Shown here: piece by piece, positions 2,677-10,003 of the stretch
Layout: every line of letters starts with the position of its first letter
Position numbering within the stretch: position 1 is the stretch's first letter
Source: Candidatus Poribacteria bacterium
GTDB taxonomy: Bacteria > Poribacteria > WGA-4E > WGA-3G
Reading direction: 5' to 3'
DNA: 64,000 bases
Assembly (NCBI GenBank): GCA_021295735.1
Contig: JAGWBU010000002.1
Span: forward strand, 5,094 to 69,093
Notes under the pieces: generated by a model
Told to the model about the DNA's origin: nothing
The model's database searches: none
Seen by the model: only the letters and a program-made list of their open reading frames with translations
Program-made: the position numbers and the translations under genes

Positions 2677-4509
2677 TTACATCTGCCCTAATTCCAAAAA
2701 TACTCCGAACATTTGGATAAGCTGCTTGAAGTCCCCAAGGGCAAGAAATATGTTCGAATCAATTCCGTTATCCTGCACTTTTGCAGAAAAACCGAAGCTA
2801 TAATTATCTGGAAAATTTGCAAACGTGACCGCAAACATCTGTATTGATGATGCACTATTCGGCTCCATCTTTGCTAACAAAGGTACGAAATTTTTTACTG
2901 CGATAATTGGGGAAACCGCCAAGAAAATGTTGTTGTCTGTTCCCAAACTTTCAACAAGATTTTGAAAACTTGGATTGGCAGAAAACTTCTCCACCATTCC
3001 TGCTTGCCTATCCAGTGCCATTTTAATAGATTCTGCACTGGTGCCTGTTGTCCAAAAAAGTTTGCCCTCTGAAAACGCGTAATACCAGTGCCATTCTGAG
3101 GGAGTCAGCTCAGAGGCTTCAGGATACTTTTCTTGACCAGCTATTTTGAAATTGGGAAAAATGTAACTTTTAATCTCAACACCGTTGTACATTAATGGTT
3201 TACCAGCATAAGTATCATGATAGTGATGGAGTTTTTCCAGAAACAGACCATTCATTAAGTCTTTTGTGCTTTGTTCATCTTTTAATTCATAGATAAACAG
3301 AAAATCAGGTATAATGAAGTTCTCAAAATTCACAGAGACACTCCATTGGTCCGCCAGTGATTCATAAAAGCCTTCTACCTCTTGGAAAAGAGGATGCAAA
3401 TGTTTCTGTTGTTCTGGTGGATCTTTAGGCAAAACATCAAACCAAAAAGTGCTGATCTCAACTAATAGGTCTGGGGTGCCTTGAAAACTGCAGTTCAGTA
3501 TGTAACTATTTGGCAGTTTGTCAAGGTTAGTTAAATCAGTAGAAGCCATTTTGAACCTATCCAAGAATTTGCTGTCGTTTCTGAACTTGAAAAACGGTTT
3601 GAGGTGGATATCCATATCCTGTACCTGTAGGGAGGCACTGACAAACTGCAACTGTTCAATTAATTTTGCCCACCCGCTAAGTCCATTTCCAAGGAGTGAT
3701 GATGTTCCCATAGATAACGGATCATTTTCACCTTCAAGATTCTCTGTCATTGATTCCAGTTCCTCTTCCAGTGAACCATCAAGCTTGGTAGTGATAGTTT
3801 CAACGTCAAAGAGAACTCCCAACTGATCGATGCCTTTCAAAATATCGGTTATGAATATGTTGTAATCAGGGTTATGTGTGATCGCTTGTATCGTTCCGTT
3901 CTGAGTGTCAATGACGTTTTTACAGCCCTCCGAGTGTACTGAAAAGACGAGGATATTCTCCAATATAGCAAAATTTCCGCTACCTTCGTCAGAACTCCAG
4001 TAAGTCACACCTTTATATTCCATGGGAGCACTTCCTTCAGCTTCAGCAGCGATTACCTGTTTTATTGGATCAGGGTCTGTTAGATGCACAACCGCTGAAA
4101 CCTGCATCGGCGTCAAACTGGTGAAAAATACTGCAAAATCTTTGTTTAAATCAAGTCCAATCTCTTCCAAGTCCGCAAAACTTTGAAAGCCTAATCCAAA
4201 AGCATTTGCCAGAATTTTCGCGAGCAACTCTGCTTGCCCCAATTGCGGCAGCATTTCTGATGCCATTACATTAATCCTATGATTTAATTCGTTTAAGCTG
4301 GGACAGTAAATAAGTCCTAAGGAATTTTTTGGAATTAAATGGAGAACACTATCTTTAGGAACATTGAGCGGCATTGCATCAGATTTTTGTACAGATACGT
4401 CTTTGGGAGCACGTTCAGATTCTGCTACAGCATCTACCAAAAAAACGGTGAATAATATTGTGCCTAAGAATGCTAACGTGATGACTAAGGGAAAACATCT
4501 TTTTTTCAT
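2677..4509 (-). CDS. Large exported protein of unknown function, DUF3352-like
   Basis: A 610-residue protein with an N-terminal hydrophobic segment (about 5-28, VITLAFLGTILFTVFLVDAV), either a signal peptide or an anchor. The rest is built from repeated alpha/beta units, with phrases such as DFAVFFTSLTPMQVSAVVHL and NIFLAVSPIIAV. These recall the large DUF3352-type exported proteins of unknown role, but the match is impressionistic. No enzyme motif or cysteine pair is visible. The start ATG has AAGGAGAAATTAAAATG upstream. It lies downstream of the sigma-propeller gene in the same direction and may belong to its regulon. Confidence 0.65.
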   Translation of the reverse strand: MKKRCFPLVITLAFLGTILFTVFLVDAVAESERAPKDVSVQKSDAMPLNVPKDSVLHLIPKNSLGLIYCPSLNELNHRINVMASEMLPQLGQAELLAKILANAFGLGFQSFADLEEIGLDLNKDFAVFFTSLTPMQVSAVVHLTDPDPIKQVIAAEAEGSAPMEYKGVTYWSSDEGSGNFAILENILVFSVHSEGCKNVIDTQNGTIQAITHNPDYNIFITDILKGIDQLGVLFDVETITTKLDGSLEEELESMTENLEGENDPLSMGTSSLLGNGLSGWAKLIEQLQFVSASLQVQDMDIHLKPFFKFRNDSKFLDRFKMASTDLTNLDKLPNSYILNCSFQGTPDLLVEISTFWFDVLPKDPPEQQKHLHPLFQEVEGFYESLADQWSVSVNFENFIIPDFLFIYELKDEQSTKDLMNGLFLEKLHHYHDTYAGKPLMYNGVEIKSYIFPNFKIAGQEKYPEASELTPSEWHWYYAFSEGKLFWTTGTSAESIKMALDRQAGMVEKFSANPSFQNLVESLGTDNNIFLAVSPIIAVKNFVPLLAKMEPNSASSIQMFAVTFANFPDNYSFGFSAKVQDNGIDSNIFLALGDFKQLIQMFGVFLELGQM

Positions 4510-4666
4510 TTTAATTTCTCCTTATGAATGAATAGCATGGCGTATTCACTCTGGATTTTGGATTGATTTCTATTACATAACCTATAAAGCAACGAAGGCA
4601 TCAACAATTGCGAGACACAACGCTATATAGGAATAGTGTCTACCATAGAGACGACTCTCCATTTTC

Positions 4667-5410
4667 TCAAAACTTCGGTTCAAATCCATGGGCACGAAGC
4701 TTCTCTAAATGCCTTTTCGCTCCTGCTTCTGAAGCAAATTTCTGTATCTCTTGTTTAAAAAGTTCAAGGACTTTGTCTATTACTTCCTCTTTGTCTATTG
4801 CTTCCTCTGAATATTCATATTCTTTTGATAGCAGATGTGCCTTTGCTGATTCAAAAAAATTAGGTGGCATTTCTTCAAGTACTTTACCACTTCGGATGTT
4901 TTCAAAGTAAGCTTGCTGCTCTTCAGCAGAAAGAGAGTTTAAATGATTTGCAATTTCTTTATTTCGTATTTCTGAATGCTTCTTGAGTTCATTTATCCTA
5001 GCTTTAATTTCATTTAACTCGTTTCTGGCAGTCTCCAGATACTCTCTTTCCTTATCCATTTCCTCGGCACTTAAGTCTTTGTGATTAGAGTCATTAGACT
5101 TATCCGGATGATGTGTGTGTTGTTTTAGTTTTTCTGACACCAAAGGTAATGCTGTGTTTTTTGTGTCCTCACTGTCCGCATGTGTATCAGTAGTGTCATC
5201 TCGAGAGATTTTCTGCCCTTGAGATGTCTCTACTGACGCAGCGTCTGGTGTTTCGTCCACTATTTTTTCGGATTCAGTTTTGTACAGCACGATAGAATCA
5301 CCTGTGAGTTTAGGACGGACAGTGGTGAAATACCATGTTGACCACCCTATTATGACAATAAGAAACAGAAATCCTAAACTGAGAAAAAAGCGTTTCCATG
5401 TAAACATCAT
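4667..5410 (-). CDS. Single-pass membrane protein with long coiled coil
   Basis: 247 residues from the start preferred here. The frame is open 30 codons further upstream to 5500, but the ATGATG at 5410 is preceded by AAAGAGGGAC, a good ribosome site. From that start, residues 8-28 are a transmembrane helix (FFLSLGFLFLIVIIGWSTWY). A low-complexity acidic and threonine-rich linker follows, then a coiled coil (about 118-160, with MDKEREYLETARNELNEIKA) and a helical C-terminal domain. No family was recognised. It lies in line with 2677-4509 and 5560-6717 in the same direction. Confidence 0.6.
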   Translation of the reverse strand: MMFTWKRFFLSLGFLFLIVIIGWSTWYFTTVRPKLTGDSIVLYKTESEKIVDETPDAASVETSQGQKISRDDTTDTHADSEDTKNTALPLVSEKLKQHTHHPDKSNDSNHKDLSAEEMDKEREYLETARNELNEIKARINELKKHSEIRNKEIANHLNSLSAEEQQAYFENIRSGKVLEEMPPNFFESAKAHLLSKEYEYSEEAIDKEEVIDKVLELFKQEIQKFASEAGAKRHLEKLRAHGFEPKF

Positions 5411-5559
5411 GTCCCTCTTTGGTTTTGAGACAACACTGTATGGTGAAAAATCAATGCTTGCCTCATGTTCAATTATAGTAGATTTACAATTACGGTACAC
5501 TTTGACTGCGTGCCTATAAGTTCATGTCTACTTATTTTACATATTACTATAAGTGCTTC

Positions 5560-6717
5560 TTAGGGTTTTGTTTCAGGCGGCACTGGTGGCGTAGGAGCTT
5601 TCGTTCCCGGTTCAGATAACCATGCCTCTATTTTGGCAGGCGTTCCAAACTGTTTCAGTAACCAATTGGCTGCATCTTTGTCGTTTTCAAGCAGATGCAG
5701 CATACCCGCATTAGTGCCGTGAAGCGATAGAGTCTCCCTAATAGCAGCTATTCGTGCAGGAGGTAGCGATGGAGATGCCCCTTCAGCGGGCAACGCCTTC
5801 GCCTCTCTATTTTTGTTCAAGAGCGTAGATAGAACATCAACAAGCTCACGCTGTGATTTCGCGTCTTGGGGAGTTTCTGTAGGTATTTTAGATTCTTGTG
5901 TGCCTACTTTGGTAAGAGAGTTTGTAAAATTGGACATGTCTTCAGGGACAGTATACTCAACACCTTCCATCTGTCCTGCAGCAATGATTTCCCCTTTCAT
6001 CCACTCTATTTGCTGACCAATTTTGCCTTGAAATTGTCCCATCGTCCACGCAGTATATTCCTGGTCTGTCGCGAGTTCCATCACGGTAGCCATCATTACT
6101 GTTTCAAAGTCACCGGGTGTTGAAGCAACTAATTCGTGAATTCGTTGTGCCATTTGCGGTTCATAATCCGCAGGTTCACCTTCAGGAAATTGCCTTCGGA
6201 AAACATCCATTGATATTTTAGAGAAATCCACCGTTCCTCCGAATGCAGGACCGAGAATATCATAAAGTTCCTGCATATCCATATCTGGCATTTTGTCGCC
6301 AGGTCCTAAGCCCTCAGAGTTTTCTGAAAACCAATTTTTTGCTGCTTGTTGAGCTTCCTCAAATTTGGCTAATTCTTCTGGACTCATGGATGATTTTAGT
6401 TTGTCCAAGAGCTTCTGCGCGTTTTCAGCATTTTCAAAACCTTTAAAGTTTTCAAAGTCCTCCGAATTGAGGATTTCTTTGGCTTTCTCTATATCCATAC
6501 CGAATATGGACTTTTCTGATCCGGACGTTTGAGATGTTGTTTCAGCAGCAATCGCTACATCTTCGGTTTCAGACACTTCAGTCGGTTCGGTAATTTCCTG
6601 AACCGATTCCGTTTTGATTACCGACTCGGTTTGCGGTTCTGATGATAGTAAAAACGCTACTCCAACGATCAAGATAAAGCATATACCCATTACAATGGGA
6701 AACAAACGATTTTTCAT
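5560..6717 (-). CDS. Membrane-anchored acidic protein of unknown function
   Basis: 385 residues. An N-terminal hydrophobic helix (about 7-25) is followed by a Glu/Thr/Val-rich linker of about 45 residues and then helical segments (SPEELAKFEEAQQAAKNWF and similar). The C-terminus is proline-rich (APTPPVPPETKP). No family was recognised. The ATG at 6717 has AAAGGAGATTTCTC upstream. It begins 33 bases after the stop of the sigma-propeller gene, so the two are very probably co-transcribed. The shared layout (anchor, disordered linker, helical periplasmic part) with the next gene suggests related roles. Confidence 0.6.
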   Translation of the reverse strand: MKNRLFPIVMGICFILIVGVAFLLSSEPQTESVIKTESVQEITEPTEVSETEDVAIAAETTSQTSGSEKSIFGMDIEKAKEILNSEDFENFKGFENAENAQKLLDKLKSSMSPEELAKFEEAQQAAKNWFSENSEGLGPGDKMPDMDMQELYDILGPAFGGTVDFSKISMDVFRRQFPEGEPADYEPQMAQRIHELVASTPGDFETVMMATVMELATDQEYTAWTMGQFQGKIGQQIEWMKGEIIAAGQMEGVEYTVPEDMSNFTNSLTKVGTQESKIPTETPQDAKSQRELVDVLSTLLNKNREAKALPAEGASPSLPPARIAAIRETLSLHGTNAGMLHLLENDKDAANWLLKQFGTPAKIEAWLSEPGTKAPTPPVPPETKP

Positions 6718-6750
6718 GAGAAATCTCCTTTTTCAGTAAATAGTGTGAAA

Positions 6751-9666
6751 TTACCTATTTTGCTTTTCAATGGGGATATGGAACAAACCGCGATTTTGGG
6801 TGGCGATATAAAATCGCTTGTTATGGATAACAAGCTTGAGAACCTGATCCGGAATTGCTTGCGAGATGAGTTCCCATTCTCCAAGATCATCTAATTGGTA
6901 TATTCCCGTATCGCAAGCACCATAAAGCTTTGTTCCATCAACAGCAAGACTGTCCATGACAACATTTGCTCCTGCACTATCAATTATCACCTGCCACTGT
7001 CTTCCGGTTTGTGACGTTAGGACACCTTTGTCAGTTGCGACATAGACTGTTGCATCTGCAAAGACTATCTCTTCAAAATCCTCAAATACAAGGGGCAGGT
7101 CGGATGTAATGTCTTTCCAATTTTTTCCACCATCAAATGACTGGAATAGATGACCATCATTTTTTCCAACATAGACAGTTTGACCAGAAACAGCCAAACC
7201 GATTCTTTTGTAGGAAGCAAGTTCGCCTGTATCTAATCCTGTGTCTACCCATTTTAAGTCTTTAGGATTCCATTTGACAAGATGCCCATTAAATTCCACG
7301 TAAAATGTTTCGCCGCTAACAGCCAATCCACCGATTCTTAGAACACCAAACATATCCCAAATCTTGAGTGCATTATCTATTGACGTTTCAGCTTTTTCAA
7401 TAAGACTATCAGAGGTGTTAGTAGTTTCAACGTCTCCATTTTTTTGACCTAACTCGCTGGATAAGAGATTTGACTCAATGGCGGGTATTCCATGAATTGG
7501 AACGAAGGCGTCGCCGCTGTCAGATAAACGATAAAGACGGGTGTTACTCTCTAAACCATCGAAAACCCCGTAAAGTGAGTTTTCCGAAACCGTTAACATC
7601 GGTTGGAAGAATAAAGTTTCTTTCTCAGAACCGACGCGTACGTTTGACCATGTATCACCACCGTCAGTAGATTGGACAATCTCTCTATAAGTGTGCACGT
7701 AGAGTCGGTTTTTGAACGCTACGAAGTTATCCAATTTGCTGCCTACTATTCCTTTCATAAAAGGATGCCATGATTTACCAGCATCAATAGAACGTTCAAG
7801 TCTGTAAAAACTTTCCTTATAAAACGTATCCTCATTCACTGCCACAGCAAGGGAATCAAGGATTGCATCCGAACCCAAAGTTCTACGCAACTCTATCCAT
7901 GTTTCTCCTCTATCTCTGGAACGGTAGATATTGCTTCCCATCGCTAAAACCGTCTTGCCAGCAGCCAAAATTTTGACTCTGGATGGGAAGATCTCAATAA
8001 AAGTCTTATTTCTGGGTGTTATTTTTATCCATGAATCTCCTAAATCTTCTGAGCGGAATATCTCCCAACTATTAGAATTCTCTTTACGCATCAATTCTCT
8101 TACCAACTTTGTTTTTAATTCGGATGTAGTCAGTTCTGAATCGCCAGGTTTCATTCCGACATAGAGCGTGTTTTCAGATACAGCCAACGATTTGATTGTT
8201 CTGAATTTCCCCACCGATAACTGTTCCCAGGTATCTGTCTTGAGACGGTAGATACCTCGGTTTGTTCCGACGAATACTGTGTTTCCGATGACAGCCGCTG
8301 CAGTGACTTCCCTATCTTTCAATTCATCGTTAAATAATGCCCAATGTTTGCCAGCATCGGTGGATCTGAAAATTTCATCGTCCATTACAAGATAAAATGC
8401 TTCGTCAGTTGTCAAAAATTCAATAACAGATCCTGTTGGACGAGGTCCAACAGAATCCCAAGTTACGCCACCATCGTTTGAAGCAAAGGTTTGATCAGTA
8501 GAGACGATATAAAGGGTGCCCTCATGTTCTGCCATTGGCATTTCAAAGTAAGTTTCTGTTGGTACAGTGTTGTTGATTAGTACCCAACCGCTCTCATCTT
8601 CTGTCATTTTGTAGATACCTGTAGGCGACACAGCGTAGAGTGATTCTTCGGATGTTAGAAAAATTTCATGTACATTTCCACCTTGCGGACCTCTTGCCTG
8701 AGTCCACTGATGTGTTGTGGCAGAAAGCTTGGGTGAATCTTCTTGGTTATTTGCTGCTAAAACATCGTCAGATACTTGTTGACCCGCTCCATTGTTCTTA
8801 TTTGCCAGAACAGCATTCCCTATCCGGCGCCGTGTATCAGGTTCTGGCTGGATATTGAGGATAATAGAAGTATCAACGATTTCAATAGCAGTTTCTGATT
8901 GTGCCTCTAAACTGTAAGGTTTCTGAAAATGGTTGAGGAGTTGATTGCTGGCACCCAATAGTAAGATAAAGATAACAGCGGCTGATCCTAAAGCTGCCCA
9001 CGGCACCAGAGGTCGTCCACTTGAAGCTGGTGTCGGTGTAATGTGCGTAATCTGTTCCATGATGTTTTCGGTTAAGTTGGCAGGTAATTGGATGCTGCCA
9101 AGCGTTTCCCGAATCATCGATTCTTCTTTCTGCAAACGTTTGCGTGCGCGTCGCAACCGACTCCTAATCGTATTCACGGATACACCCATAAATTTACTTA
9201 TCGCTTCAGATGTCATTTCACCGAGATAGTGTAGCGTTACGACTGTGCGTTCGCTCTCCGGTAATTTTTCAAGAAGATTTTTAACAAGTTCACGACGGTG
9301 TTCCGCTGCAGCCTTCTCACGTTCTTCGGCTACAAAACGTTCATAAGCAGTTTTCTCTAAGGTCTTTGTTTTGGTGGCTTCTAATGATTGCATAGTTGGT
9401 TTCTTCCTTCTGTGCCAGTCTGTACACAGGTTCCTGGCGATTACATAAAGCCATCCGGCAAATTGATTCGGGTTCTTTAAAGTGGCAAGTTTCTTATATG
9501 CCTGCAGGAAGGTATCTTGGGTGATTTCTTCGGCTACCTGAAAATCACCTATTTGTCGCCAAGCAAGCGCATGAACACTCTTTTGGTATTTTTGGACTAA
9601 ATCACTGAAAGCTGAATCGTCACCCGACAAGATGTTGCGAATCAGTTCAACATCGTCTTTTTCCAT
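6751..9666 (-). CDS. ECF sigma factor fused to a membrane helix and BNR/Asp-box propeller
   Basis: 971 residues from ATG 9666, which has GGAGG seven bases upstream. A TTG five codons earlier is less likely. Residues 1-90 are sigma region 2 (FSDLVQKYQKSVHALAWRQI, AEEITQDTFLQAYKKL, WLYVIARNLCTDW). Residues 125-185 are region 4 with a helix-turn-helix (MTSEAISKFMGVSVNTIRSR). Residues 222-245 form a hydrophobic helix. From about 320 to the end the protein repeats blades with Asp-box motifs S-x-D-x-G-x-x-W (SNDGGVTW, STDAGKHW, SEDLGDSW, SRDRGETW, SIDAGKSW, STDGGDTW, SFDGGKNW). The layout suggests a cytoplasmic sigma factor tied to an extracytoplasmic sensor propeller in one chain. It heads a probable operon of exported proteins. 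No separate anti-sigma gene is nearby. Confidence 0.85.
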   Translation of the reverse strand: MEKDDVELIRNILSGDDSAFSDLVQKYQKSVHALAWRQIGDFQVAEEITQDTFLQAYKKLATLKNPNQFAGWLYVIARNLCTDWHRRKKPTMQSLEATKTKTLEKTAYERFVAEEREKAAAEHRRELVKNLLEKLPESERTVVTLHYLGEMTSEAISKFMGVSVNTIRSRLRRARKRLQKEESMIRETLGSIQLPANLTENIMEQITHITPTPASSGRPLVPWAALGSAAVIFILLLGASNQLLNHFQKPYSLEAQSETAIEIVDTSIILNIQPEPDTRRRIGNAVLANKNNGAGQQVSDDVLAANNQEDSPKLSATTHQWTQARGPQGGNVHEIFLTSEESLYAVSPTGIYKMTEDESGWVLINNTVPTETYFEMPMAEHEGTLYIVSTDQTFASNDGGVTWDSVGPRPTGSVIEFLTTDEAFYLVMDDEIFRSTDAGKHWALFNDELKDREVTAAAVIGNTVFVGTNRGIYRLKTDTWEQLSVGKFRTIKSLAVSENTLYVGMKPGDSELTTSELKTKLVRELMRKENSNSWEIFRSEDLGDSWIKITPRNKTFIEIFPSRVKILAAGKTVLAMGSNIYRSRDRGETWIELRRTLGSDAILDSLAVAVNEDTFYKESFYRLERSIDAGKSWHPFMKGIVGSKLDNFVAFKNRLYVHTYREIVQSTDGGDTWSNVRVGSEKETLFFQPMLTVSENSLYGVFDGLESNTRLYRLSDSGDAFVPIHGIPAIESNLLSSELGQKNGDVETTNTSDSLIEKAETSIDNALKIWDMFGVLRIGGLAVSGETFYVEFNGHLVKWNPKDLKWVDTGLDTGELASYKRIGLAVSGQTVYVGKNDGHLFQSFDGGKNWKDITSDLPLVFEDFEEIVFADATVYVATDKGVLTSQTGRQWQVIIDSAGANVVMDSLAVDGTKLYGACDTGIYQLDDLGEWELISQAIPDQVLKLVIHNKRFYIATQNRGLFHIPIEKQNR

Positions 9667-10003
9667 CGGAGTCCTCCACAAAAGATTGGTTTGTGATTAT
9701 TAGTGACGTAATTCTTTAGTAAAAAAGGTGCATAATTTGAAAAAAAATGTAAAATTCTGGATTTTATAGTAAATTATGTAAATAAGTTCACATATATTCT
9801 GTAGGAGCGCTCTCCGAATCGCGACGAAACCACTGTTAGTCGGGAATCGGAGTTCCCTCGGACAGCTCAGATGTCCAGTTAATTGTAGAAAAATACGAGA
9901 TTATAGCGTTTCCATTCCGTTCAATCGAACTTTCTAACCAATGCTCTTAATCAACAAAAATTTACCCTTGACACAGGTTAAAGAAACATATATATTAAAC
10001 CAC
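9667..10003. other. Divergent intergenic region with small palindromes
   Basis: About 337 bases between divergent genes. 9680-9790 is very AT-rich and probably holds the sigma-propeller promoter, though no clear box was chosen. 9801-9880 contains a GTAGGAGCG repeat and imperfect palindromes (GGAATCGGAGTTCC). The right end carries the promoter annotated at 9968. Confidence 0.5.
9968..9996 (+). promoter_or_regulatory. Sigma70-type promoter, probably leaderless
   Basis: TTGACA (9968-9973), a 17-base spacer, then TATATT (9991-9996). Transcription should begin near 10003-10004, which is the first base of the ATGATG that starts the MOSC gene. No Shine-Dalgarno precedes that ATG, so the message may be leaderless. 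Confidence 0.65.

Follow-up and report, generated by a model that had tools for sequence, protein, structure and literature searches.

A predicted one-piece transmembrane ECF sigma factor with a beta-propeller sensor from Candidatus Poribacteria, and the promoter shared by its paralogue family

The locus considered here raises the question of whether a sigma factor built into the same polypeptide as a membrane helix and a sensor domain can be a working regulator and, if so, how it would reach its promoters. The gene lies in the window, by which we mean the entire 64-kb stretch of DNA analysed, from the genome of a sponge-associated Candidatus Poribacteria. A sequence-only reading had placed one 971-residue protein at positions 6751-9666, with intact sigma regions 2 and 4 followed by a hydrophobic helix and at least seven Asp-box blades, and had given no strand. 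The protein is indeed encoded there, on the minus strand, by a single uninterrupted 971-aa ORF running from an ATG at 9666 to a stop at 6751-6753; a plus-strand reading of the same interval was rejected, as it contains stops throughout. The mechanically called ORF starts at a TTG five codons upstream of this ATG. The ATG is our preferred candidate for the start, because it is preceded by a GGAGG ribosome-binding site (9673-9677, minus strand) and because the orthologue starts agree with it. A frame error joining two genes, named earlier as a potential flaw, was also checked for and can be excluded, since intact full-length orthologues of 949-975 aa occur in other genomes and many paralogues have the identical order of parts.

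Pfam matches to Sigma70_r2 (residues 23-89) and Sigma70_r4_2 (residues 126-178) bear out the two intact sigma regions, and the protein has the arrangement typical of an ECF sigma factor, with regions 2 and 4 only and a short linker between them (Pfam, NCBIfam). Its sigma part also matched the SigW and RpoE structures. Region 2 spans residues 1-95 (9382-9666; all coordinates for this gene and its neighbours refer to the minus strand) and carries the sequence D83-W-H-R86, a DXXR motif of which D83 and R86 are the putative -10 readers, while region 4 spans residues 125-185 (9112-9294) with residues 165, 168, and 172 as the putative -35 readers; both assignments draw upon the covariation described below. 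These are followed by a juxtamembrane segment (residues 186-217, 9016-9111), recognized from alignment and models as a short amphipathic helix, QLPANLTENIMEQI, and a Pro-rich linker; a transmembrane helix (residues 220-243, 8938-9009), supported by hydropathy, AlphaFold2, and family comparison; a stalk of low predicted order (residues 244-319, 8710-8937), delimited by pLDDT and conservation, with an FQ.PY motif at its start; and a BNR/Asp-box beta-propeller sensor (residues 320-971, 6754-8709), assigned by Pfam and models.

The C-terminal part of the protein has BNR, PSII_BNR, and Sortilin-Vps10 matches in Pfam and contains seven strict Asp boxes, at residues 396, 435, 539, 583, 626, 666, and 843. 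In agreement with the earlier minimum of seven blades, approximately 14 four-stranded blades can be counted in the strands predicted by AlphaFold2, although the full-length model is itself modest (pLDDT 72, pTM 0.53) and its pLDDT falls below 50 at residues 213-319. In structure comparison the outside part came closest to GH74 xyloglucanases, enzymes built of two seven-bladed Asp-box propellers (Z ~23 over 555 aligned residues, rmsd 6.3, with a modest model as query); the likeness applies to the predicted domain fold only. Structural matches also included hybrid two-component sensors of Bacteroides whose propellers are periplasmic, and the sensor of the Bacteroides proteins BT4673 and BT4663 is presumably also made of two seven-bladed propellers. 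The models therefore suggest that the sensor is probably a double propeller of two seven-bladed units, 14 blades in all.

Full-length orthologues with the same order of parts were present in at least 14 other Candidatus Poribacteria genomes (949-975 aa), with a further copy, L246, ending early at 755 residues. Identity among the orthologues was 79-97% in sigma region 2, 70-97% in region 4, 38-92% in the transmembrane helix, and 39-60% in the propeller; judged by sequence comparison, the output is conserved and the sensor is fast-changing. A gene for a 385-aa protein with an N-terminal hydrophobic segment (5560-6717) begins 33 nt downstream, in an order kept in close orthologue loci, and likely belongs to the same operon, as does a gene for a 277-aa membrane-anchored protein (4667-5500), which was identified from its ORF and the orthologue loci. 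Orthologue loci also identify two co-conserved neighbours, encoding a 610-aa secreted-type protein (2677-4509) and a 272-aa membrane-anchored protein (1040-1858). The closest orthologue loci keep a divergent MOSC-domain-like gene upstream together with the 385-, 277-, 610-, and 272-aa genes downstream, while mainly the 610- and 272-aa genes remain in more distant ones.

The earlier proposal that the protein works without a separate anti-sigma protein is supported by the genome: there is no separate anti-sigma gene near the window gene, and all eight zf-HC2 matches in its genome are found at other ECF genes. Within the 971-aa protein itself, Pfam returned neither a zf-HC2 nor a FecR match. The region between sigma region 4 and the transmembrane helix lacks the zinc-finger anti-sigma domain of ECF52/53 proteins, the only cysteines being at residues 81 and 918 with none in residues 186-217, and the C-terminal part is a predicted beta-propeller rather than the FecR-type periplasmic anti-sigma domain of the IutY type (ECF243). 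The juxtamembrane segment 186-217 is a candidate in-cis anti-sigma element. Its helix at residues 198-206 was present in both structure models, and in the zf-HC2 anti-sigmas a stretch such as HPAPASIQDAVMATIRQQ between zinc finger and transmembrane helix resembles the QLPANLTENIMEQI of the fusion. From this short motif, we infer that the fusion may have lost the zinc finger of an anti-sigma factor while retaining the part next to and in the membrane.

Upstream of the gene lies a putative ECF-type promoter (9698-9739, minus strand), ATTATGCACCTTTTTTACTAAAGAATTACGTCACTA, found by both profile and pattern, with a -35 element TGCACC (9727-9732), an 18-nt spacer, and a -10 element CGTC (9705-9708), in keeping with the -35 containing AAC or ACC and the CGTC -10 that are expected upstream of the gene of an ECF sigma factor. 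The site scored 31.2 bits with profile R1, which was built from 57 promoters, and elsewhere in the 64-kb window neither pattern nor profile gave a match above chance or a convincing one. Among the family of paralogues described below, TGCA[AC]C-N17-19-CGTC occurred in 56 of 149 upstream regions vs 0.2 in shuffles, and 24 of the 28 upstream regions in the window's own genome exceeded the 99% null with a two-box matrix that was partly trained on them. It should be noted that the training set of the promoter scanner is part of the same family. In the same genome, 17 of the 26 best profile R1 matches were located upstream of family genes; the remaining matches include sites ahead of a MoxR/BatA-type operon, ABC transporter genes, a CotH-like gene, and small membrane proteins. 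With profile R1 (E 0.01), 15-70 promoters were found per family-bearing genome and zero in G023 and G009, two relatives without a family match at E 1e-40. Nearly all family genes thus appear to have an ECF-type promoter, TGCAMC-N18-CGTC, which is new here. As a separate observation, a family promoter at L233:8299-8340 (minus strand) precedes a MoxR ATPase/BatA-type operon, which is a candidate non-family target.

Our main reading of these features, to which we assign a probability of roughly 0.6, is a one-piece transmembrane ECF sigma factor with a propeller sensor that is released by stalk and site-2 cleavage and acts by positive feedback. The sigma domain would be cytoplasmic and tied to the inner membrane by one helix, with the 36-residue juxtamembrane stretch taking over the role of a separate anti-sigma protein by keeping it inactive, and the double beta-propeller outside serving as the sensor. 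A signal would expose the disordered stalk for trimming by a periplasmic protease, after which a site-2 protease would cut within the membrane and free the sigma factor. Together with RNA polymerase, the freed sigma factor would then drive transcription of its own gene and of the operon that follows, as well as of further genes that have TGCAMC-N18-CGTC promoters. The single chain, intact sigma factor, transmembrane helix, predicted propeller fold, conserved promoter, and sigma-promoter match are read from sequence, while we infer the cellular topology, the inactive state, the proteolytic steps, and the signal. An RseP-like site-2 protease is encoded in the genome; such proteases are nearly universal, and its presence says little. 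That so short a segment can bind an ECF sigma factor follows from Tt-TolB, an anti-sigma factor consisting of 39 cytoplasmic residues, a transmembrane helix, and a TolB domain (PMC3397946).

The main rival to release by cleavage is that the sigma factor acts while still tethered, in the manner of the membrane transcription factors of the ToxR/CadC type: the signal would alter the juxtamembrane segment, and RNA polymerase and promoter would come to the membrane. The Pro-rich, low-confidence stretch of ~36 residues between sigma region 4 and the transmembrane helix would give slack enough for a holoenzyme, and no cleavage motif was identified in the window protein. However, autoregulation combined with several scattered target loci would better suit a diffusible sigma factor, and the studied precedents point the same way, as the sigma-transmembrane fusion IutY is released by Prc and RseP (PMC5411451) and the data on SCO4117 (ECF52) have been interpreted as favouring proteolytic activation (PMC8999054). 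We therefore regard tethered action as unlikely, though well ahead of the other alternatives, and by analogy with IutY and ECF52, on which it is modelled, release by cleavage as the most likely route.

A second alternative is that the hydrophobic segment is no anchor at all and that the protein is wholly cytoplasmic, with its propeller serving as a protein-interaction scaffold comparable to the TPR domains of ECF42. A minority of paralogues do have no such segment, and in them TPR-like or other domains follow the sigma domain directly. In the window protein, however, residues 220-238 are the sole and strong hydropathy segment (KD 2.23), as expected from the earlier claim of a hydrophobic helix after the sigma domain, and AlphaFold2 predicts a helix at 225-243. 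All 17 aligned paralogues with a transmembrane segment have it at one fixed site (KD 1.8-2.6), with no comparable segment elsewhere in them, and among family members of at least 280 aa the segment is found at the same place in 137 of 144, with K/R at 3.0 before vs 1.7 after it, a positive-inside bias. The ends of the segment are marked by invariant P219, P222, and G238, and the FQ.PY motif directly after it is nearly invariant, whichever sensor is attached. A wholly cytoplasmic protein is thus very improbable. The prediction of a transmembrane helix followed by an extracytoplasmic domain, as in ECF52/53-type proteins, supports the one-chain transmembrane sensor with its own sigma factor that had been proposed.

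The window protein is one of approximately 28 family members in its own genome, 18 of which combine sigma, juxtamembrane segment, transmembrane helix, and an outside domain, while two are split and eight lack the transmembrane helix. The outside domains of the family include BNR propellers, WD40 propellers, and others, and the members without a transmembrane helix carry TPR-like or M61 peptidase domains. At E 1e-40, 69 of 84 genomes from the phylum had family matches; every genome of the genus carried between 18 and at least 28 of them, against 0-2 in sister families; one relative's genome has 74 members. A scan of genomic contigs found only Poribacteria among the best 80 loci. The strand, the very large family, its shared promoter, and the probable 14-blade double propeller all go beyond what the sequence-only reading had described.

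Several unusual family members and related genes were also encountered. In two copies on C192 of the window's own genome (L038:9600-10271 with 7363-9603, and 6409-7068 with 4046-6412, minus strand), a deletion and frameshift at the transmembrane helix yield a free 219-223 aa sigma factor, which might be constitutively active, and a truncated transmembrane-propeller frame. An ancestral two-gene form was considered and rejected for them, as the DNA has an internal deletion with frameshift at the transmembrane helix, and they are best read as damaged copies. At L049:4505-7483 (minus strand), a family sigma domain lacking the transmembrane helix is fused to an M61 glycyl aminopeptidase, and at L046:9079-9795 (plus strand) a family sigma domain is followed at the contig end by the apparent start of a Gfo/Idh-type oxidoreductase. 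A family promoter at L238:7488-7518 (minus strand) stands ahead of a gene for a WD40 protein with an apparent remnant of a sigma N-terminus, MKKSDTELNHKI, just upstream of a full family gene. Lastly, fusions of an ECF-like sigma domain to an FtsZ/tubulin GTPase were seen at L061:4904-9211 (plus strand, on C68 of the window's own genome), L047:9032-10252 (plus strand), and L059:1669-2865 (minus strand). In the first of these, the same 1435-aa ORF runs on into DNA polymerase III alpha (Pfam Tubulin, FtsZ_C, PHP, and DNA_pol3_alpha). Sigma-FtsZ fusions occur in most of the 18 genus genomes, several in frames of 1359-1450 aa, which is as long as the sigma-FtsZ-DnaE form; ftsZ also occurs as a separate gene.

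The sequence-only reading left open how a tethered sigma factor reaches promoters, and this can now be answered in part, as the promoter-reading residues of the family covary with each member's own promoter. Across 105 members, all 72 CGTC promoters belonged to members with R86; Q86 or E86 combined with R83 or K83 went mostly with TATC, and N83 mostly with TGTC, while residues 168, 172, and 165 tracked the -35 element. The columns best separating -10 from -35 were 86 and 83 vs 168, 172, and 165, i.e. regions 2.4 and 4.2. For Tt-RpoE1, the Asp of the DXXR motif has been shown by mutation to read -12G of CGTC (PMC3397946). In two further, held-out genomes, where the scanner did not see the bases under test, all 24 promoters with C as the first -10 base belonged to R86 members, whereas none of the 9 members with another residue had C there (Fisher 6e-6). 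Among distance-matched pairs, residue 86 came out on top of all 186 for the first -10 base (change rate 0.79 vs 0.14) and again led for the second -10 base, where residue 83 came next; residues 172 and 168 ranked first for the two -35 bases. In a stricter tree count (Fitch co-change, ~14-16 changes per base), residue 168 ranked first, 83 third or fourth, and 86 outside the top six. The covariation is therefore partly phylogenetic, with a weaker signal by Fitch co-change than by the pair test. Because the residues reading -10 and -35 covary with the protein's own promoter, held-out genomes included, the tethered protein very probably functions as a sigma factor and is autoregulated, and selection seems to act on the membrane-linked sigma factors of the family for reading their own promoters. 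That the sigma domain is instead a relic of an expanded and perhaps decaying family, as its very high copy numbers and damaged copies (the two split on C192, those without a transmembrane helix) could suggest, is likewise very improbable, since this domain is the most conserved part, with core residues near invariant, and its promoter-reading residues follow the promoter.

The design of a sigma factor joined to a sensor was known before, from IutY, ECF52, Gemmataceae ECF-WD40 proteins, and the RpoE1/TolB pair of Thermoanaerobacter tengcongensis. IutY of Pseudomonas putida (ECF243; PMC5411451, PMC8999054) likewise joins an ECF sigma factor, one transmembrane helix, and a periplasmic sensor in one chain with no separate anti-sigma, but its periplasmic part is an anti-sigma domain of the cell-surface-signalling type with an outer-membrane receptor partner, whereas that of the window protein is a predicted double propeller. 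The actinobacterial ECF48/ECF52/ECF53 fusions, such as SCO4117 (PMC8999054), share the C-terminal transmembrane helix and extracytoplasmic domain, but their extensions hold a zinc-finger anti-sigma where the window protein has 36 Cys-free residues from sigma region 4 to the transmembrane helix. By its domains and promoter, the window protein thus classes as an ECF sigma factor of neither the IutY nor the ECF52/53 type. The Gemmataceae ECF-WD40 proteins (PMC8567305, PMC11032199) are a lineage-specific ECF-beta-propeller expansion like that of Poribacteria; they belong to another phylum and carry WD40 repeats, where the window protein has an Asp-box, GH74-like propeller, and the likeness is one of architecture. 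Tt-RpoE1/Tt-TolB (PMC3397946) likewise comprises an ECF sigma factor, a short cytoplasmic tail, and a transmembrane helix followed by a TolB domain, and Tt-RpoE1 shares both the CGTC -10 element and autoregulation with the window family, but the pair is encoded by two adjacent genes rather than as one chain. Bacteroides BT4673/BT4663 (PDB 3ott, 4a2l) also unite a large periplasmic beta-propeller sensor and a DNA-acting output in one membrane protein, their output being a phosphorelay and HTH rather than a sigma factor. No prior description of the Poribacteria family was found in the literature searched, which was chiefly open access and did not include the ECF classification paper.

At somewhat less than even odds, we tentatively propose that sponge Poribacteria possess a modular family of ~20-74 one-chain sigma receptors per genome that largely replaces separate anti-sigmas, with swappable sensors that converge on one promoter class, self-activate, and may cross-activate. 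If true, many different signals would feed one envelope programme. Only a handful of sigma factors fused to membrane sensors (IutY, SCO4117) have been studied, whereas here they would form a main signalling family, with dozens per genome, and their natural variation may provide a code by which promoter bases can be read from sigma residues. Two questions become testable in this family, namely whether a tethered sigma factor needs to be released by cleavage and whether a single regulon is common to many one-chain receptors. The family also offers a first guess at how these uncultured sponge symbionts may sense their surroundings.
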